This document shows, piece by piece, positions 5,068 through 45,070 of a stretch of 47,922 nucleotides of DNA (positions are counted from its first letter, which is position 1; each line of letters starts with the position of its first letter). The position numbers and the translations under genes are program-made. The notes beneath the pieces were generated by a model. The model was not told the DNA's origin, did not search any database, and saw only the letters and a program-made list of their open reading frames with translations. The DNA comes from Deltaproteobacteria bacterium (GTDB taxonomy: Bacteria; Desulfobacterota; Desulfobacteria; Desulfobacterales; Desulfosalsimonadaceae). The stretch lies in the NCBI GenBank assembly GCA_013151835.1, contig JAADHK010000026.1:1-47922 (forward strand), given 5' to 3'.

Positions 5068-5073
5068 AAATTT

Positions 5074-5234
5074 GATGGCGTCGTAAAAAGTCCCATCTAC
5101 TGCGTTGTAGCGGGTCGCGAAATGCTCGGAATACTATATGTATGCCTCCGCTTTCGCGACACCACTACGCCTTGTATATGGAACTTTCTACTTAGCCATC
5201 TTTAACGGGTTGCCTGACTTTTTACGAGATCATC
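5074..5234 (+). mobile_element. MITE family R1, copy 1 (161 bp)
   Basis: Starts GATGGCGTCGTAAAAAGTC and ends with the inverted counterpart GACTTTTTACGAGATCATC. It is flanked by a perfect 6-bp direct duplication, AAATTT (5068-5073 and 5235-5240). The interior can form a long hairpin (GTCGCGAAA...TTTCGCGAC). It has no open frame that looks like a gene. The other copies are 6735-6889, 25834-25989 and 34039-34194, all in the same orientation. Confidence 0.9.
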
Positions 5235-5275
5235 AAATTTCGATCAGTTTTTAAAAAACTTAAGAGACTGATTGC

Positions 5276-6565: not shown

Positions 6566-6734
6566 CAAACTCACAATTCCGCAGTTTGAAATTACCTGTT
6601 TAACCGCACCAAGCTCTGAGGTGTGAATTTTACTTTAAGAGGAATTCTCCTATCAATTGCTTTTCCAGATGTCAAGATGATATTGAAAATTCCACAGGGT
6701 AATAGATAATCCCAATATCACAAATTATAACCTT

Positions 6735-6889
6735 GATGGCGTCGTAAAAAGTCCCATCTACTGCGTTGTAGCGGGTCGCGAAATGCTCGGAATACTATAT
6801 GTATGCCTCCGCTTTCGCGCTACGCCTTGTATATGGAACTTTCTACTTAGCCATCTTTACCGGGTTGCCTGACTTTTTACGAGATCATC
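6735..6889 (+). mobile_element. MITE family R1, copy 2 (155 bp)
   Basis: Same ends as copy 1, flanked by a perfect 6-bp duplication AACCTT (6729-6734 and 6890-6895). It differs from copy 1 mainly by a deletion in the distal arm of the internal hairpin (CGCGCTACGCC instead of CGCGACACCACTACGCC). It lies upstream of sat in the same orientation as copy 1. Each copy has its own duplication, so the two inserted independently. Confidence 0.9.
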
Positions 6890-6937
6890 AACCTTGCTGA
6901 GTATATGCCGATGTGTGCCCGCTGATGGGTGTGGTAG

Positions 6938-25800: not shown

Positions 25801-25833
25801 TTATACCTGATTATTTTCGCCCGGCCCAACAAT

Positions 25834-25989
25834 GATGGCGTCGTAAAAAGTCCCATCTACTGCGTTGTAGCGGGTCGCGAAATGCTCGGAATACTATATG
25901 TATACCTCCGCTTTCGCGACACCGCCTTGTATATGGAACTTGCAACGATGCCATCTTTACCGGGTTGTCTGACTTTTTACGAGTGCATC
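25834..25989 (+). mobile_element. MITE family R1, copy 3 (156 bp)
   Basis: Begins GATGGCGTCGTAAAAAGTC and ends GACTTTTTACGAGTGCATC. Perfect 6-bp duplication AACAAT (25828-25833 and 25990-25995). Its right end covers the 3' end of the DUF6178 gene: the stop and the last ~10 codons of that gene (- strand) are MITE sequence. It lies between two - strand genes. Confidence 0.9.
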
Positions 25990-27738
25990 AACAATAAACA
26001 TATTAATAAACCGTGGATCAAGATCATCCGCAACAACTGCCGAAAGTTCTTCCTCGAGCCTCACAAACATCTGCTCCAGGGATCGGCCCAGGATTTCCGA
26101 GACCCTGTATTCCTCCTGTCCGCTCTTTTGGGCCAGGAACCGCAGGAAATCCGTCTTTATCCCGTCTGAAACCTTTGGTGGGCTGGTATCGGTCCACAGA
26201 GTGACAAAAAAAGCCTTAAATGTATCAAGGTCGATAGTAACCAGCACAGGAGAGAGCCCGGCCCGTGTCCGGGCCCACATGGTAAGCAGGAGATTTTCAT
26301 AGGTCACGAAACGGCCCCTTGGAATTGTTTTTACCTCAACACCTGTTTTTGAAAAAAGGGCGTCAAAGGCCATGGCCGCATCCAGCGCATCCCCTGCCTG
26401 AAAGATATCCTCCAGGGATTCAAATTCACGGTAAAGCCTGCCGGTTTCATAATTATCGAAAAAACGGGGCCGGCTAAGAAGCAGGCCGCCGATGTATCCC
26501 GTAAGCCTTTCCCCCCAGAAGGTCAGCGGCAGGCCGTTTTTCGCAAACCACCCTTCTTTTTTCCAGCTCATGGCCCGGGACTTTAATTCAATTGCTGCGG
26601 CAAAACCGGCCCTGAAAATCCCGGAAAGAGGGTATGAGGAAAGCAGGGCCGCAGCCCGGCCCGGTTCCGGCTTTTCACCCGCCACGCAGGACAGGCCGAT
26701 GCTCAAATATCCGCACACTTTTTCCACGACATGGCGAAGATCGCTACGATCGTTTATGAGGGTCTGGTCCGCCGCTATGATCCGGTTGCACAGGGCCGCG
26801 AATTCGGCCAGGAGTTCATCCGTCGGGCCGCCTTCACCCATGCGCATAATCGCATCGGAAAAAATCGTGCCGGATTTGAGCATGAAAACATGACCCATTG
26901 GAACGGGTGGCGAAAAACCATTATTTTTATTTGGCCCGGCCAGAGACGATCGTCTCTTTTTTACGCCCGAAGGACCCAATGGCGCGTAAACACCCACTGC
27001 CTCATCAAAGGGCAAAAAACCCCTTTCGGCCAGGCGCACGTTTTTAAGCCTGAAGGCATCCTCCTCGCTTTCGGCCGGGATTACTGCCGTTGTTGCAAGG
27101 AGCGTGAACTGGTATCGTTTTATATCTTCATCAACAAGGCACGCAAGAAAGCGGGTTATAAATTCGGCCCGTGCATCAGGCCCGTCATCATCTTCTTCAG
27201 GCGAGCCGGCGCTTGTTTTTTCAGGTATGATCCGCACATAAAACACGCCGTCATTTGTGAAAAAGCCATCCTCCCACTCGGATGGATCTTCGTTTTCCTC
27301 TAATATCCGGACGTCAATGGTCCGGCTGAGATAATATTCCGCAAGTTCGGGTTTTTCATCCCACATCCATTTGGCAAACCGGGCCGGGTCCGCCAGAAAA
27401 AGACGATTCAGCCATTCTGTCATGGCGCTGGTTTTAAACCGATCCTTTTCCCAGACATCCATGTCGAGGAAAAACTCCCATTGTCGGGCCGAAGCCATAC
27501 CCAGGATTTCCAGAGAGTCGTCCGGGCCGATTTCATGGATCAGAAAATAAAAATCCTCGACGGGCATGGAATGGACAAGGGGAGTCGCCATTTTATGATC
27601 TAAAATGGCTTTGATCGCCTTTTCGGGCGGAAGGGACAGGATGCGCATCCTCTCTTTTGCAAGCAGGGCCATCCGTTGCCGGTGGGCATCCAGCGCCCTG
27701 GTTTTTTCTTTATAACTTGCCAGCTTGTTATTATTCAT
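25957..27738 (-). CDS. DUF6178 family protein, C-terminus supplied by a MITE
   Basis: 593 residues. The N-terminal block (SLPPEKAIKAILDHKMATPLVHSMPVEDFYFLIHEIG) and the WEFFLDMDVWEKDR segment match the Desulfobacterota family of unknown function DUF6178. It is soluble and helical. The last residues, DALVKSQTTR, and the TAA stop are encoded inside the right end of R1 copy 3, so the original C-terminus has been replaced or lost. How many native residues were lost cannot be seen. The ATG lies at 27738; a 5'-proximal repeat (R4) stands just beyond. Function unknown; the gene may still be active. Confidence 0.85.
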   Translation of the reverse strand: MNNNKLASYKEKTRALDAHRQRMALLAKERMRILSLPPEKAIKAILDHKMATPLVHSMPVEDFYFLIHEIGPDDSLEILGMASARQWEFFLDMDVWEKDRFKTSAMTEWLNRLFLADPARFAKWMWDEKPELAEYYLSRTIDVRILEENEDPSEWEDGFFTNDGVFYVRIIPEKTSAGSPEEDDDGPDARAEFITRFLACLVDEDIKRYQFTLLATTAVIPAESEEDAFRLKNVRLAERGFLPFDEAVGVYAPLGPSGVKKRRSSLAGPNKNNGFSPPVPMGHVFMLKSGTIFSDAIMRMGEGGPTDELLAEFAALCNRIIAADQTLINDRSDLRHVVEKVCGYLSIGLSCVAGEKPEPGRAAALLSSYPLSGIFRAGFAAAIELKSRAMSWKKEGWFAKNGLPLTFWGERLTGYIGGLLLSRPRFFDNYETGRLYREFESLEDIFQAGDALDAAMAFDALFSKTGVEVKTIPRGRFVTYENLLLTMWARTRAGLSPVLVTIDLDTFKAFFVTLWTDTSPPKVSDGIKTDFLRFLAQKSGQEEYRVSEILGRSLEQMFVRLEEELSAVVADDLDPRFINMFIVDALVKSQTTR

Positions 27739-32199: not shown

Positions 32200-32239
32200 C
32201 GGTTATCGGTTCACGGTTAAAGACCGCAAACCGGCAACC
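32187..32239. terminator. Inverted repeat between convergent iorB and panP
   Basis: GGTTGCCGGTT (32187-32197) and AACCGGCAACC (32229-32239) are perfect 11-bp arms around ~31 bp. The arms lie on the two stop-codon regions, and CTTTTT follows the right arm. Within the loop are tandem 7-mers (GGTTGAC, GGTTATC, GGTTCAC). It could terminate transcription from both sides. Confidence 0.55.
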
Positions 32240-33881
32240 GCTTTTTCGCAATCTCTTCCTGCTCGTCTAAAATGTCGCCAAGTATTGAAATCGTGGTCAT
32301 GGGATTCATGATGACGCAGCGCAGCACGACAATATCGTCTTCGTGGCCGTGATCCGCGCGTAAAGTAGTCCTTGAGACAAAGCTTTTCCCCGCCTCCCGC
32401 TGAAGCCTCTGCAGGTTGAGGTTTGCCCCATTGATCCGTTTGTTTATTTTCTTCCGCTCGTCCGATGATGCAGCGGCAAGCTGTTTTTGTAAATGCTCCG
32501 GGCAGTAACGGTAGGTCAGGATATTTAAAACCGGGCGTGTCACGAGCTGAAAATCAGGCCTTTTTTCGATCTCAGCCGCAAAAAGGGCCGCCGTTTCTAT
32601 CCCGTGGTCGATGAGCAGGGAATATCCCTTTTTCCCCATTATTTTCAATGCGCCATCTAAAATCAGGGAATTGGCTTCCCGTGAGCCGGACAGACTCTTT
32701 ATGCCAAGGTCCACCGACCCGCGCCGGTTAACATAATGGGAGTAATAGGCGATCACATCCAGATGGCGGGGATCGTTAAAATATACCATGCCACAGCTCA
32801 TGGGCATGTAAAACTGCTTGTGACCGTCAATGGTCACGGAATCGGCGTTTTCTATTCCTGAAAGGAGATGCCGGTTCTTGGCGGAAAGCAGTGTCGGCCC
32901 TCCCCAAGCGGCGTCCACATGGAAATGAATTCCGTAAGTCTTGCATATATCTGCCATTTCAGCCAGGGGATCGACAGTGCCGGTCTCTGTTGCACCGGCA
33001 ATCCCCACAACCGCCATGATGTGTATTTTCGGGCTCTTTTCCCGTATCCCGGAAATCGCCTTTTTCAGGGCTGTTATGTCGATACGAAAATCTGCGTCCG
33101 TATCAATCGGGACCACCGCGTTGTTCCCCAGACCGAGAATTCCCGCAGCTTTTTTCAGGGAATAATGACCCAGCCGCGACACCAGGATCACGCATTGATC
33201 GATGTCATGGGCGCGAAACGCCGCAGAAAGCCCGTCCGCCTCGATGCCGACAAATTCGGCTTTCGGAGGAAATGCGGAGTTTCGAGCAACCCAGAGGGCC
33301 GTAAGATTGGCCGTTGTCCCGCCCTCGGTGAACACCCCGAGCGAGGAATCCGTGTTCTGGACATGCTCCAGGTAAAACGCATCGCTTTTGGCGTAGACCA
33401 TGCGATGGATCTTTGCGATAACCTGCTTTTCAAGGATCGACACGACCTTGGAGGTCTCAAGCTTTACAACATTCTGATTCAGGGCCGAGACAATGGTCTT
33501 TAGATGAACCATGAAAAAAGGGATGGCGGATGTCATGTGGCCCACGAAATAGGGTGACGCCACATTGACGGCATGGGGGGCGAGATCGTTGATAAGGCAT
33601 GTGATAACATCCGAAAGCTTTGTTACCGGCTCATCGTTTATGACCGTGCCGGCAAACCGCGAGGCAAGATCCTTTAAACTTGCCGATTCGGTGATGCCCA
33701 CATGTTTTTTAAGAAAATCATTGAGCCCGAAAAGAATCTGCTCCATGTACTTGATGAGCGTCTCGCGACAGGCATCTTCCTCGGGCCTGATAAAGACCTT
33801 AAACAGTCTCTCCCAATCCGCCACCAGGTCTTTTTTGCCGTGATGTAAAGTACCGGAAGTTGCTTTTGGACTGCTTTTCAT
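32217..33881 (-). CDS. panP: PLP-dependent decarboxylase, group II (PanP-like aspartate 1-decarboxylase or glutamate/tyrosine type)
   Basis: 554 residues, the length of the PanP (putative PLP-dependent aspartate decarboxylase) group. The Schiff-base lysine is in DGHKQFYMPMSCG, the cofactor aspartate is in HVDAAWGGP, and the EGGTTANLTAL loop is present. A PanP-type enzyme would make beta-alanine for coenzyme A, and no panD is visible here. Related group II enzymes also decarboxylate glutamate, tyrosine or diaminobutyrate, so the substrate is uncertain. It is convergent with iorB. The first ~20 residues are basic and may be a non-conserved lead. Confidence 0.75.
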   Translation of the reverse strand: MKSSPKATSGTLHHGKKDLVADWERLFKVFIRPEEDACRETLIKYMEQILFGLNDFLKKHVGITESASLKDLASRFAGTVINDEPVTKLSDVITCLINDLAPHAVNVASPYFVGHMTSAIPFFMVHLKTIVSALNQNVVKLETSKVVSILEKQVIAKIHRMVYAKSDAFYLEHVQNTDSSLGVFTEGGTTANLTALWVARNSAFPPKAEFVGIEADGLSAAFRAHDIDQCVILVSRLGHYSLKKAAGILGLGNNAVVPIDTDADFRIDITALKKAISGIREKSPKIHIMAVVGIAGATETGTVDPLAEMADICKTYGIHFHVDAAWGGPTLLSAKNRHLLSGIENADSVTIDGHKQFYMPMSCGMVYFNDPRHLDVIAYYSHYVNRRGSVDLGIKSLSGSREANSLILDGALKIMGKKGYSLLIDHGIETAALFAAEIEKRPDFQLVTRPVLNILTYRYCPEHLQKQLAAASSDERKKINKRINGANLNLQRLQREAGKSFVSRTTLRADHGHEDDIVVLRCVIMNPMTTISILGDILDEQEEIAKKRLPVCGL

Positions 33882-34022
33882 TTATTGTGATTCCGTATAT
33901 TGGGCATGGCCCGGTTTGTTTTCATGGATGTTATCGCCGCATACTTGCGCGACATTTAAATGAATCATAACGGTGAAACTTAAACGGATTAAAGGGCAGG
34001 GTCAACCTCTATTTATCCCCAT

Positions 34023-34335
34023 CAGCAATTCTAATTATGATGGCGTCGTAAAAAGTCCCATCTACTGCGTTGTAGCGGGTCGCGAAATGCTCGGAATACT
34101 ATATGTATGCCTCCGCTTTCGCCACTACGCCTTGTATATGGAACTTTCTACTTAGCCATCTTAACCGGGTTGCCTGACTTTTTACGAGATCATCAATTAT
34201 GGATTTAACAAAACTAATGTTGCCATGCACAGATCACGTAACGACGGCCTGCGGCCGCCATTTCCCAATAAATGGAAGGCTGAAGCCATCCGCTACATGG
34301 CCGTACCGCAGTTCTTTCCATAATTAGAATTGCTG
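34023..34335. mobile_element. MITE with 19-bp inverted ends, itself interrupted by R1 copy 4
   Basis: Outer arms CAGCAATTCTAATTATG (34023-34039) and its reverse complement (34319-34335) match exactly. Removing R1 copy 4 and one AATTAT extends the arm to 19 bp, CAGCAATTCTAATTATGGA. A perfect 9-bp duplication TATCCCCAT flanks it (34014-34022 and 34336-34344). The undisturbed element would be about 151 bp. It contains a CCATTT/AAATGG hairpin and a 39-bp segment recurring at 45032-45070. The right duplication supplies AT of the AddB-like ATG. Confidence 0.88.
34039..34194 (+). mobile_element. MITE family R1, copy 4 (156 bp), nested
   Basis: Ends as in the other copies; perfect 6-bp duplication AATTAT (34033-34038 and 34195-34200). 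It lies inside the terminal arm of the larger 34023-34335 element. Confidence 0.9.
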
Positions 34336-34342
34336 TATCCCC

Positions 34343-37141
34343 ATGGAAATTGCCTGCATGAAAATAGAAAAAAAAATCAAAGACAAAAAACAGCTCCTGG
34401 AATTTCTCGAAAAAAAAGGTGTTCTGATCACGGCAAATCGCCGCATGGCCCGGTCCGCCCTTGCCTCGTACGGAAAATCGCAGGTAACAAAAGGCCGGTC
34501 GGCATGGGAAACCCCGGAAATTCTCACCTTTGGCGCGTGGATTGAAAAATGCGCCCTGTTTTCCCTTTACCCGGAGGATGCACCGGGATCTCACCCGGTG
34601 CAGGGAGACAATAAAGCAGGAGGGGCTGTAAAATCGACCCCTTGTCGGGCAATCCTTTTAAGTCCGCTCCAAGAGAGGATGATATGGGAAGATATAATAG
34701 AAAGGTCAACTCGCGGCAGTGGGCTGCTTGCCCTGTCATCCGCTGCGGCTGCCGCCTCGACGGCATGGGCGCTGGCTCATGAATGGAAAGTTGTCTTAAA
34801 ACGCGGGCCTTTGTGGGAATCCGGTGATCCGGCGGCATTTTTGAACTGGGCCGGACAATTTGACCTCCTTTGTGCGAAAAACAACTGGATCGATCACGCA
34901 AGGCTGCCCATGATCCTTACCGAAGCGTTTAAGTCCGGACGCATGCAGGCGCCCGGCGCTATCTGCCTCTTCGGCTTTGACGAATTTACACCGGCACAGA
35001 CCGGGTTGTTTGAAATACTTGCCGGCTGCGGAGCCAAACTTTTTATCCATGAGCCAACGGCTCACAATACCAGGGCCTATCGGACCGGGTTTATTGACGC
35101 GGCGACCGAACTTTTTTCTGCGGCAAAATGGGCCCGCGCCATTGTTGAATCAGACCCGAACCTGCGCGTGGGAGTTATAATTTTTGACCTTTCCGCACGG
35201 AGCAACGAGGTCCTGCGGGTATTTGAGGAAGTATGCCACCCGGATTCGGCGCTCCTTTGTTCCGGACATCAGGACCTTGCCTTTAATATATCCTACGGCC
35301 AAAGTCTTTCGGACTACCCGCTTGTGCGCGCAGCCCTTTTGATCCTGGCGTTGAGTGCGGACCGGTTTTCCATAACCGACTGGAGTGAACTGCTTCGATC
35401 CCCTTTTATTGCGCAGGCCAACACCGAAATTCATTCCCGCGCGAAAATGGACGCCTATCTCAGGGAACATGGGGAAAATTTCATTACAATCCGTCGTTTT
35501 CTTAAAATCTTCGACAAAGGCCAGGATAACAAATGGCCGGCCGGATTTAAAAATTGCCTTAAAAGATTTTCGGCCCTTGTCACGGGTCTTCCAAAACGTC
35601 AGTTGCCGTCAGGCTGGGCCGAAACATTTAATCAAATGACAAAGGCGTTCGCATGGCCCGGGGACAGAACATCAGACAGCCGTGAATTCCAGCAGACGGT
35701 TGCAACGCAGGACGCCCTGCTGCAATTAGCCGGCCTTGACCGGGTGGCGCCGTCCGGCTGGACTCGTAAAAAAGCGCTGTCCGCTTTTGAAAAGCATGTT
35801 TCATCAACGATCTTTCAGCCGGAACAAAAGAATGCGCCCATACAGATAACGGGTTTTCTGGAAGCTGCGGGCCAGGATTTCGACCGGGTCCGGATAACCG
35901 GGCTGCATCATGAATGCTGGCCGGCACCGGCAAGACCCAACCCGTTTCTTCCAATCGGACTCCAGAGGGAGAAAAACCTGCCGCACAGCTCGCCTGCCCG
36001 TGAAGTCTCGTATGCGAAAAAGATAACCGAACGACTGCTTGTTTCGGCGCCGGAGATTATTGTAAGCTACCCGATCTCGGACGGGGAAAACGAACTCTTC
36101 GCCAGCCCGTTGATTGCGGGGCTTCCGGAAGTCGATAGAAAAACCCCCTATGATTACGGGGAATTTATCATGCCCGCAGCCTCCTTAGCAACCGACCCCC
36201 TGGCCACCCCCGAAATCGTCCCCAAATCTGCAATGGAAACGATCCGCGACGCAAAAGGCCCGGAAGTTGCCAAAGGACAAAAGATCAGCGGCGGGACTGG
36301 CATGATAAAGGCCCAGGCCGCCTGCCCGTTTAAGGCTTTTTCACATTACCGGCTTTCGGCCAAACGTCTGGAATTACCGGTTTCAGGCCTGAGCCCGGCC
36401 GAGCGTGGCATACTGGTTCACGCCGCTTTGGAGTATGTATGGGGACTGCTGAAAAACCAGAAAACCCTTTTATCCATGAAGGAGGAAGAAATTGAAGAAA
36501 TCGTCGGCAGGGGTGTGGCTTCAGCCATGGGAGACATGGCGAAAAACCGGCCGGACCTGTTTTCCGGCCGGTTTGGAAAGATTGAAACCCTCCGGTTAAA
36601 AGGGCTTATTTCAGAATGCCTGGAGCTGGAAAAAAACCGTTCCCCATTTACCGTCATCCAAAGAGAGGAGCGCATAGATGCTGAGATCAGCGGGCTGCGG
36701 CTTACCACGATTGTCGACCGGATCGACCGACTTGTTGACGGCCGCCTGGTAATCATAGACTACAAGACCGGCAAGGCCGGTGTAAACTCATGGACGGAAG
36801 AGAGAATGGAAGAGCCGCAACTTCCACTTTACAGCACCATAATGAAAGAGCCCCTTGCGGGTGTATTTTTCCTGCAGGTCAAAAAAGGGGATTGCGAATA
36901 TAAAGGCGTTGCCTCGGATGATCATGTGATTCCCGGCGCCATTGTGATCGGAGGGGAAAAGGATAAAATTTTTACTTCATACGATTGCCTGGATGAACTC
37001 GTGCTTGAATGGAAAAAGAGACTGTACATCCTGGCGGACGAGATATTGTCCGGCCATGCGCCCGTGGCCCCGGTCGATCCAAATAAGGTTTGCAAATATT
37101 GTGATTTAAAGCCCTTGTGCAGAATAGAGGTTTTTAGATAA
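34343..37141 (+). CDS. AddB/RecB-like PD-(D/E)XK nuclease subunit (DNA repair)
   Basis: 932 residues. The N-terminal part (VLITANRRMARSALASYGK) and the helicase-like middle match the probable DNA-repair protein group related to AddB. The C-terminal nuclease has RLTTIVDRIDRLVDGRLVIIDYKTGK (the D and E/D-x-K of the active site). An iron-sulfur site is suggested by CPFKAF and CKYCDLKPLC (C, then C-x2-C-x5-C). It probably resects double-strand breaks with the neighbouring AddA-like protein. The ATG at 34343 is only partly from native sequence, because a mobile element's duplication ends there; ATG 34358 is the alternative. No Shine-Dalgarno is clear. Confidence 0.88.
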   Translation: MEIACMKIEKKIKDKKQLLEFLEKKGVLITANRRMARSALASYGKSQVTKGRSAWETPEILTFGAWIEKCALFSLYPEDAPGSHPVQGDNKAGGAVKSTPCRAILLSPLQERMIWEDIIERSTRGSGLLALSSAAAAASTAWALAHEWKVVLKRGPLWESGDPAAFLNWAGQFDLLCAKNNWIDHARLPMILTEAFKSGRMQAPGAICLFGFDEFTPAQTGLFEILAGCGAKLFIHEPTAHNTRAYRTGFIDAATELFSAAKWARAIVESDPNLRVGVIIFDLSARSNEVLRVFEEVCHPDSALLCSGHQDLAFNISYGQSLSDYPLVRAALLILALSADRFSITDWSELLRSPFIAQANTEIHSRAKMDAYLREHGENFITIRRFLKIFDKGQDNKWPAGFKNCLKRFSALVTGLPKRQLPSGWAETFNQMTKAFAWPGDRTSDSREFQQTVATQDALLQLAGLDRVAPSGWTRKKALSAFEKHVSSTIFQPEQKNAPIQITGFLEAAGQDFDRVRITGLHHECWPAPARPNPFLPIGLQREKNLPHSSPAREVSYAKKITERLLVSAPEIIVSYPISDGENELFASPLIAGLPEVDRKTPYDYGEFIMPAASLATDPLATPEIVPKSAMETIRDAKGPEVAKGQKISGGTGMIKAQAACPFKAFSHYRLSAKRLELPVSGLSPAERGILVHAALEYVWGLLKNQKTLLSMKEEEIEEIVGRGVASAMGDMAKNRPDLFSGRFGKIETLRLKGLISECLELEKNRSPFTVIQREERIDAEISGLRLTTIVDRIDRLVDGRLVIIDYKTGKAGVNSWTEERMEEPQLPLYSTIMKEPLAGVFFLQVKKGDCEYKGVASDDHVIPGAIVIGGEKDKIFTSYDCLDELVLEWKKRLYILADEILSGHAPVAPVDPNKVCKYCDLKPLCRIEVFR

Positions 37142-40100
37142 TGAACGAAATTAATCACATCCCGGACACACCTGCACGGAAAGCTGCCATCGACCCGGCA
37201 GGCTCGTTTATCGTCCAGGCCCCGGCGGGCTCGGGCAAGACCGGGCTTTTGATCCAGAGATACCTCGCGCTGCTCCCGTGCGTTACCTCCCCGGAAGAAG
37301 TCCTTGCCATAACCTTTACGAAAAAAGCTGCGGCCGAGATGCGCGCAAGGATAATTTCGGCCTTAAAGCAGGCGCAAAATCCCGACCCTCCCGGAACCGC
37401 GCATGAAAAAACCACTTGGGGCCTTGCCCGGGCCGCACTGGCTACGGACGAAAAATCCGGCTGGGCCATCGATAAAAACCCCTCCCGGCTCCGCGTAATG
37501 ACCATAGACGCACTCTGCTCTTCATTGACCCGGCAAATGCCGTTTCTCGCAGGCTTCGGTGGGCAGCCGGAAATAGCCGAAAACCCGGGGGCTCTCTATG
37601 CCGAGGCCGCATCAAACACCGTGTCCGAGCTTGAAACCGGCTCGGCCCGGGCCGATGATATAGCAATCCTTGTCAAAAACACGGACAACAGGCTCGACCG
37701 TGTCGAGGCTCTCGTGGCGGCCATGCTCCCCCGAAGGGACCAGTGGCTCCGTCACGTGGTGGATACCGCTGGCTCCGAACAATACCGCGAGGCTCTTGAA
37801 TCGGCCATGCGCCGGGTAATATCAGATACGCTGCGCTCGGCCGGAAAGGAGCTCGCCTCCCCGGGTCTCCCGCCACCTGCCGAGTGGATGCCCGTTGCCC
37901 GTTTTGCGGCAAAAAATCTCCTGTCCGAAGGCATTGATTCTCCCATATGCAATTGCCATGACCTTGCGGTTCTGCCGGGCGATTCTCTGCCTGACCTTCC
38001 CGCCTGGCAGGGAATCAGCGAACTGTTTCTGACCCAAAAAGGGGAATGGAGAAAACCGGGCGGCGTAAGCAAAAGAATCGGATTTCCTCCCAAAAGCGCC
38101 GGACTCGACCCGGAAACAAAGGCTACAAATGAAAGTATGAAAAATGCCTTCAAATCTTGTCTTGAAGAATTTTCAGCAAACCTGGCAGTAGCTCAAGTCC
38201 TTGACATGATACGCTCAATTCCCGCACCCGGATATACGGACGAGCAATGGAAGGTCATGGCGGCGCTCTTTACGACATTAAAGCTTGCCGCAGCCCATCT
38301 CAGCCTTGTTTTTGCCGAAAAAAACAAGGCCGATTTCACAGAAATGTCCATGCGGGCGGCAATGGCCCTGGGCACACCGGACAACCCCACGGACCTTGCC
38401 CTGAGGCTCGATTACGCGATTTCACACATTCTCATAGACGAGTTTCAGGATACGAGCATCAGCCAGTTTGAACTTTTAAAACAGCTCACTGCGGGATGGA
38501 CTTTAGGGGACAAAAGGACCTTTTTCGCCGTGGGAGACCCCATGCAGTCCATTTACGCCTTCAGGGAGGCCGAGGTCGGTATCTTTTTAAACACATGGGA
38601 AAACGGCCTGGGCCATATCCCATTAACTTCCCTGACCCTTTCAACGAATTTCAGGTCTGAAAAGGGAATCGTGGACTGGATAAACAAAACATTCCCAAAG
38701 GTTTTCCCAAAATCCGCCGGCGGGGCCGAAGGGGCCGTGCCCTACACCCCGTGCGCGGCCGTACATTCCATGGGGCCGGGCATAGCCGTCCATGTCCACG
38801 CCCTTGCGGACACGGGCATGGACAACGAAGCAGCAATCGTGGCCGATTGCGTCGAATCCATTAAAAAAAACAGGCCGGACGACCGGATCGCCATACTGGT
38901 GAGAGGCAGGCCCCATTTACGGGAAATAATCCCCACGCTACGGGCAAGGGGCATACGATTTTCGGCAATGGATATTGATCCACTTGAAACAAGGCCGGTG
39001 ATACGCGACCTTATTTCACTCACAAGAGCCCTCGCCCATCCGGCCGACAGGATCGCCTGGCTCGCGATTCTGCGTGCACCCTGGTGCGGGCTGCGCCTTG
39101 AAGATCTTCATATACTTGCCGGCGATGATCATTCCAGGGCCGTGCACGAGCTTATCCATGAAAAATCACGGCTTGAAAGGCTTTGTGCAAACAGCGCGAA
39201 ACGGCTGTTATCCTTCCGGCAAATCATTGATGCGGCCATAAAAAATACGGGACGGCGCAGTCTTTCGCGCATGGTGGAAATCACCTGGCGCAAGCTTGGA
39301 GGGCAGGCCACCATGATGTCGGAATCGGACATAAAGGAAGTCCGGGCCTATCTGGACCTGCTGGAACAGGTTACCGGCACGGGAACGCTTTCGGATTACA
39401 ATCAATTCAATTCAGCCGTGTCCGGCCTTTTTGCCCTGCCCGACCCCCTTGCCGACGGCAGCATCAGGATCATGACCATACACAAAGCCAAAGGCCTTGA
39501 ATTTGACATTGTTCTTATTCCGGGGCTTGAAAAGAGCGCGCCGGGTGAGGTGGACCGGCTGCTTTTCTGGCTGGAACGGCCGGACGTGCCGGGAGAAGAA
39601 GGGCTGTTAATGGCGCCCATGGGCGAAACCGGGAGACAAAACGATCCGACCTACAAATATATAAAGGGCCTTCACCAGAAAAAAAAGGGTCTCGAGGTCG
39701 GCCGGATCCTTTATGTGGCCGCAACCCGTGCCAAAAGGGAGCTACACCTGTTCGGGCGCATTAATTTAACCGAAGACGGATTTGTTAAAACCCCGAAAAA
39801 CGGTTCCTTCCTTAACATGCTCTGGCCGGCAGTGGAACAGGACTTCACAAAAGCCGCTCAAATCACGACAAAAAATGACGCCGGACCAGAGCCCGGAACG
39901 GGAATAAACCCGAAGTTCGGAACAACGACAGAGATACTGGAAATCCAAAGGCTGCCGGACCAGTGGGAGGCGCCGGCTCCCGGACCGGGGATTCTGATCA
40001 AACAGGACAAATCCCCTGCTGTTTCCGACGCCTCTCTTGATCCCGGTCTGGACGGACCTCCATTGTTCGACTGGGCCGGGTTTACGGCCAGGCGGGTGGG

Positions 40101-40602
40101 AATCGTTGTCCACCGATGGCTTCGGCTGATCTGTGAACAGGGGATCGATAAATGGAACCCGGACCGGGTAAAAATGGCGAGCCGCCTTATCCGGGTCGAC
40201 ATGGAGAGGAGCGGCGTGAACCCGGAACATATCGATTCGGCGGCAAACCTTGCGCAAACGGCGCTTACAAACACCCTGACCGATTCAAGGGGAAAATGGA
40301 TATTGTCGCCGCATGAGTCTTCCGCCTGCGAGTATGCCCTGAGCGGCATTGACGGGAATGAAATTATAAACGCGGTTATTGACCGGAGCTTTGTGGATGA
40401 AGAGGGAGTTGTCCGTATAATAGATTACAAGACCTCAACCCATGCGGGAGGCGACAAAGAAGAATTTCTGGACCGTGAACAGGACCGGTATGCCGGCGTC
40501 ATGAACCGTTACGCCCGGCTCATGCATGCCATGACCGGTCGTGACGTGAAGCTCGGGCTTTATTATCCGCTGCTGTGCGGATGGAGGCAATGGAAGATTT
40601 GA
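37141..40602 (+). CDS. AddA/RecB-like UvrD helicase-nuclease
   Basis: 1153 residues. Walker A is APAGSGKTGLL near residue 30. Motif Ia TFTKKAAAEMRARI, motif II ILIDEFQDTS, motif III VGDPMQSIYAFREAEVG, motif V TIHKAKGLEFDIVLIPGL and motif VI LYVAATRAKREL are all intact. The C-terminal PD-(D/E)XK nuclease has VIDRSFVDEEGVVRIIDYKTS. It overlaps the AddB-like stop by one base (TAATG), so the pair is coupled. The complex would unwind and degrade broken DNA ends. It stands without a RecD or other partner here. Confidence 0.92.
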   Translation: MNEINHIPDTPARKAAIDPAGSFIVQAPAGSGKTGLLIQRYLALLPCVTSPEEVLAITFTKKAAAEMRARIISALKQAQNPDPPGTAHEKTTWGLARAALATDEKSGWAIDKNPSRLRVMTIDALCSSLTRQMPFLAGFGGQPEIAENPGALYAEAASNTVSELETGSARADDIAILVKNTDNRLDRVEALVAAMLPRRDQWLRHVVDTAGSEQYREALESAMRRVISDTLRSAGKELASPGLPPPAEWMPVARFAAKNLLSEGIDSPICNCHDLAVLPGDSLPDLPAWQGISELFLTQKGEWRKPGGVSKRIGFPPKSAGLDPETKATNESMKNAFKSCLEEFSANLAVAQVLDMIRSIPAPGYTDEQWKVMAALFTTLKLAAAHLSLVFAEKNKADFTEMSMRAAMALGTPDNPTDLALRLDYAISHILIDEFQDTSISQFELLKQLTAGWTLGDKRTFFAVGDPMQSIYAFREAEVGIFLNTWENGLGHIPLTSLTLSTNFRSEKGIVDWINKTFPKVFPKSAGGAEGAVPYTPCAAVHSMGPGIAVHVHALADTGMDNEAAIVADCVESIKKNRPDDRIAILVRGRPHLREIIPTLRARGIRFSAMDIDPLETRPVIRDLISLTRALAHPADRIAWLAILRAPWCGLRLEDLHILAGDDHSRAVHELIHEKSRLERLCANSAKRLLSFRQIIDAAIKNTGRRSLSRMVEITWRKLGGQATMMSESDIKEVRAYLDLLEQVTGTGTLSDYNQFNSAVSGLFALPDPLADGSIRIMTIHKAKGLEFDIVLIPGLEKSAPGEVDRLLFWLERPDVPGEEGLLMAPMGETGRQNDPTYKYIKGLHQKKKGLEVGRILYVAATRAKRELHLFGRINLTEDGFVKTPKNGSFLNMLWPAVEQDFTKAAQITTKNDAGPEPGTGINPKFGTTTEILEIQRLPDQWEAPAPGPGILIKQDKSPAVSDASLDPGLDGPPLFDWAGFTARRVGIVVHRWLRLICEQGIDKWNPDRVKMASRLIRVDMERSGVNPEHIDSAANLAQTALTNTLTDSRGKWILSPHESSACEYALSGIDGNEIINAVIDRSFVDEEGVVRIIDYKTSTHAGGDKEEFLDREQDRYAGVMNRYARLMHAMTGRDVKLGLYYPLLCGWRQWKI

Positions 40603-44644: not shown

Positions 44645-45043
44645 ATGAAAATAGAAGTCTCCATCGGAGAGGTAATGGACAAGCTGAGCATCCTTGCCAT
44701 CAAACGGAAAAAAATCACCGCCACTGAAAAGCTTGCAAACATTGAAAAAGAATATCAATTCCTTGCAGCCGCCCTGGCAAAAGAGGGCATTGAAACCGAT
44801 TCCGACGAATACCGTCGCTTAGAAGCGGTAAACGCAAAACTCTGGGATATCGAGGACAGGATAAGGCTCAAGGAGGCGGCATCAGAGTTTGACAAGGATT
44901 TTATCGCCCTTGCCCGGAGCGTATATTTCAACAACGATGACAGGGCAAACGTAAAGCGGGAAATCAACGAAAAATACGGGTCAGAGCTTGTCGAGGAAAA
45001 GCAATACGCAACTTATCGGTTTTCCAAAAAAATGGAAGGCTAA
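44645..45043 (+). CDS. DUF6165 family protein
   Basis: 132 residues from ATG 44645, which follows TTGGAGG. An upstream in-frame start at 44582 lies inside the heptamer repeat and lacks a ribosome site. The protein is helical and charged, with no known activity. MKIEVSIGEVMDKLSILAIKRKKI is the family's opening. Its final residues (KKMEG) and stop lie in a repeat shared with the MITE at 34023. It stands at the head of a run with the GT2 and CDP-glycerol genes, so a role in envelope glycan synthesis is plausible. Confidence 0.85.
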   Translation: MKIEVSIGEVMDKLSILAIKRKKITATEKLANIEKEYQFLAAALAKEGIETDSDEYRRLEAVNAKLWDIEDRIRLKEAASEFDKDFIALARSVYFNNDDRANVKREINEKYGSELVEEKQYATYRFSKKMEG

Positions 45044-45070
45044 AGCCATCCGCTACACGACCGTGCCGCA
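45032..45070 (+). repeat. 39-bp segment shared with the MITE at 34023-34335
   Basis: ATGGAAGGCTAAAGCCATCC plus the next 19 bases match 34272-34310 at 35 of 39 positions. It covers the end of the DUF6165 gene and reaches to 31 bp before the GT2 start. No terminal repeats or duplication are seen here. Confidence 0.7.

Follow-up and report, generated by a model that had tools for sequence, protein, structure and literature searches.

Two MITEs (non-autonomous DNA transposons) that are unrelated to each other appear to have entered the intergenic region between panP and addB in succession, in a manner that preserved the bases of the addB start region and that would leave translation of addB essentially unaffected. 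On the strength of sequence comparison, we give this explanation as a whole a probability of roughly 80%. The first element, MITE-A, would have inserted with a 9-bp target duplication, leaving 22 bp between its right end and the start of addB, and the second, R1, would then have inserted at an AATTAT target in the left arm of MITE-A. Translation of addB would proceed from ATG 34358, and the leader and promoter region alone would have changed, by a gain of 322 bp. Coordinates refer to the window, that is, the whole 47,922-nucleotide stretch of DNA that was analysed, and the features concerned are as follows.

32217 to 33881, minus strand: panP, PLP-dependent aspartate 1-decarboxylase, divergent (TIGR03799, above cut-off)
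34014 to 34022, no strand: left target duplication of MITE-A, 9 bp, TATCCCCAT
34023 to 34335, plus strand: MITE-A, 151 bp without the R1 insert, ends CAGCAATTCTAATTATGGA in inverted orientation
34033 to 34038, no strand: left target duplication of R1, 6 bp, AATTAT
34039 to 34194, plus strand: R1, the second MITE, in the left arm of MITE-A, 156 bp, ends GATGGCGTCGTAAAAAGTC / GACTTTTTACGAGATCATC
34195 to 34200, no strand: right target duplication of R1, AATTAT
34336 to 34344, no strand: right target duplication of MITE-A, TATCCCCAT, whose last two bases and a native G make up ATG 34343
34358 to 37141, plus strand: AddB-like gene, probable DNA repair protein (TIGR03623) with a PD-(D/E)XK nuclease, start assigned by orthologue comparison
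37141 to 40602, plus strand: AddA-like UvrD-type helicase/nuclease gene, overlapping the addB stop

The last two genes form a probable operon and resemble AddAB helicase-nucleases in being adjacent, overlapping genes for a nuclease and a UvrD-type helicase. The addB protein itself belongs to the TIGR03623 subfamily, for which it scores above cut-off, but does not reach the cut-offs set for the AddB equivalogs of alphaproteobacteria and of Gram-positive bacteria. A divergent panP also adjoins addB at five other loci (L045, L051, L053, L060 and L067, in genomes G008, G009, G013, G015 and G031). None of the six genomes with panP abutting addB, that of the window (G000) included, has a MutY above the curated cut-off; the only matches there are weak, at about 80-95 bits, and the one in G000 is an endonuclease-III-like protein.

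The anatomy of the insertion is readily reconstructed. Inverted ends reading CAGCAATTCTAATTATG(GA) are flanked by both copies of TATCCCCAT, at 34014-34022 and 34336-34344, and in-silico removal of R1 together with one AATTAT leaves a MITE-A 151 bp long whose inverted ends are perfect over 19 bases. The first-pass annotation, which had described a MITE of 151 bp with 19-bp perfect ends and a 9-bp duplication, was thus accurate to the base, and it was also right that R1 arrived later: R1, which carries its own AATTAT duplication, interrupts MITE-A and must therefore be the younger of the two. A perfect 17-bp inverted repeat is expected by chance about 3e-6 times in 331 bp, a figure that takes no account of the 9-bp duplication abutting it. 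Given this expectation, together with seven further copies of MITE-A and many copies of R1 in the genome, the nested elements are not a product of chance. MITE-A has inverted ends and a 9-bp duplication, is short and multicopy and contains no transposase gene, and R1 has terminal inverted repeats and a duplication of fixed length, as MITEs do. Compared with bacterial MITEs as a general kind rather than with named insertion-sequence entries, that is, with non-autonomous derivatives of DDE-transposase insertion sequences, the two are alike in being short, non-coding, multicopy and intergenic, with inverted ends and fixed-length duplications, and no difference was found. No Rfam family matched within the window.

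MITE-A is present in eight copies in its own 3.3-Mb genome (contigs C91, C65, C39, C9, C145, C69, C118 and C127), the other copies being flanked by 9-bp duplications that are exact or contain one mismatch. Beyond this genome, the exact 18-bp end occurs in at least 111 stretches of one genome collection, in hosts that range from Desulfobacterales to Kiritimatiellae, Akkermansia and others, and such ends are often paired, 80-350 bp apart, with exact 9-bp duplications; all three statements apply among the matches listed. Matches to the MITE-A end at two loci of family genomes (L074 and L075) were set aside: they are single ends with flanks that resemble each other, and look like chance matches in conserved sequence and not like elements. 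Within the window, 50 bp at 45021-45070 match the interior of MITE-A at 88% identity and are a piece of a short repeat found at more than 20 sites in the genome. The copy on contig C39 (L080, 29708-29848) has an R1 end in its left arm, the contig terminating inside R1. Since this R1 sits at the same AAT(T/C)AT position as that of the window copy, in the opposite orientation, the site has probably been hit by R1 twice.

What mobilised MITE-A? A search of its own genome for a parent transposase, run without a positive control, matched none. A gammaproteobacterial MAG (L157) carries a 1808-bp element with MITE-A-type 18-bp ends, within a few mismatches, and a 9-bp duplication, features that may link MITE-A to IS4/ISAs1-like insertion sequences. 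This candidate parent differs in its length, in a frameshifted transposase with weak similarity to the DDE_Tnp_1, IS4 and ISAs1 profiles, all below curated cut-offs, and in that it was not found in the genome of the window. Judging from this one degenerate element and its sub-cut-off profile hits, MITE-A was probably mobilised by an IS4/ISAs1-like DDE transposase.

The uninserted site reads TATCCCCATGG, the same ATG included (in longer context ...CTATTTATCCCCATGGAAATTGCCTGCATG...), and ATG 34343 and ATG 34358 are both present with or without the element. Because the 9-bp duplication copies native sequence, the insertion created no start codon. It had been proposed that the duplication provides the AT of ATG 34343, and that the start codon now depends on element sequence or that 34358 is a new start. 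Both bases are native whether or not the element is there, the duplication restores them, and ATG 34358 exists in the uninserted sequence and is the start that orthologues favour. The observation of nested MITEs, an ordinary arrangement, is correct; its consequence was over-read.

Orthologue comparison suggests which of the two codons is used. AddB orthologues of the family, mostly 39-43% identical, carry, close to the N-terminus, a conserved motif, L(V/I)TVNRR, and in 16 of the 19 that are readable a start codon lies 20-22 codons before it (19, 24 and 24 codons in the rest). In three orthologues (L047, L059 and L062) an in-frame stop leaves no room for a start 27 codons before the motif. In the window, ATG 34358 lies 22 codons before the motif and ATG 34343 lies 27. 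Since the former distance matches the orthologues, addB most likely starts at ATG 34358 and not at 34343, as judged against proteins about 40% identical. Uninserted orthologues, at this same level of identity, do mostly start at the place of 34358, which is what the first-pass annotation had said would speak against any change. A scan of the contig collection with the AddB protein gave no relative that would supply a close uninserted allele. The ribosome-site match of ATG 34358 is weak (GGA only), that of orthologue starts is no better, and the 22 bases directly upstream are native. Translation initiation of addB is probably untouched by the elements.

What is certain to have changed is that the addB start now lies 322 bp farther from whatever precedes 34014. 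This longer 5' leader and promoter region would be the real change, and its effect on transcription is possibly none. Alternatively, addB and addA might now be transcribed under the control of the elements, through a promoter or a structured leader that these supply. Bacterial transposable elements supply promoters in other species, the Correia elements of Neisseria being one example, and RNA folding predicts strong, stable hairpins for both MITE-A and R1. Against this, a scan of 33850-34420 confined to promoters of the sigma-70 type found none, against a chance expectation of 1.3. We consider control by the elements unlikely, if the most credible of the alternatives to a merely lengthened leader.

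Nor is the location of R1 unusual for its family. R1-type ends give 139 matches in the genome of the window, and 33 of the 36 genomes of the family have them; of the 35 copies that were read, 24 are flanked by an exact duplication of 6 bp (consensus AANNNT). The 29 copies examined in the window's genome are all situated between ORFs. Twelve lie within 60 bp of, or slightly overlap, an ORF start (several within 25 bp), ORF starts here being mechanical first-start calls. The position of R1 near the addB start is therefore typical of the family. Three more copies are found in the window itself (5069-5236, 6734-6891 and 25832-25991).

R1-type elements also occur at addAB in two relatives. In G007 (L061, reverse complement, 1300-1451) an element of 152 bp separates mutY from addB, and its duplication, AATGATT, contains the addB ATG. 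Another, of 151 bp, lies between addB and addA in G025 (L068, reverse complement, 2552-2702), with the duplication AACTGT; 17 bp separate its end from the likely start of addA. Might R1-type elements prefer leaders just before start codons, and have repeatedly altered addAB expression in the family? We find this improbable. With 135-162 end matches in each of the three genomes, and the 29 copies examined in G000 all intergenic, independent insertions near addAB, such as those in G000, G007 and G025, are what one would expect of an element that is abundant between genes.

There remains the open frame upstream. As the first-pass annotation had it, the frame that begins at GTG 33973 becomes continuous with addB once the elements are removed, as the joined flanks confirm. 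One might read this as a start that moved, addB having once begun at GTG 33973 and now beginning at ATG 34343 or 34358, with a shortened and element-dependent protein. The frame does run into addB, but GTG 33973 has no Shine-Dalgarno sequence, and TGA 33961 just upstream would limit any extension to about 20 codons at most. Moreover, the frame has no counterpart in the orthologues, which have no N-terminal extension in common and for the most part begin where ATG 34358 lies, and both ATG codons were already there in the uninserted sequence. A 16-codon stretch that is open in the right frame by accident is not rare, and a moved start seems very improbable to us. That the frame is instead a remnant of mutY is an equally remote prospect and was rejected: mutY directly precedes addB in five relatives (G001, G004, G007, G012 and G016), no mutY was detected in G000, and TTTATCCC occurs at a nearly equal distance before addB in L062, but a profile built from the C-terminal parts of the relatives' MutY proteins scores below 0 bits at best against the joined flanks.

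Successive MITE insertions that spared the addB start call for care in annotation: where a duplication abuts a start codon, the element can seem to have supplied the start, yet the duplicated bases are native. R1 is a very abundant, family-wide element; no published description of it, or of MITE-A, was found in the literature searched. Should the elements have altered transcription of addB and addA, they would add to the cases in which MITEs changed the regulation of a DNA-repair operon.
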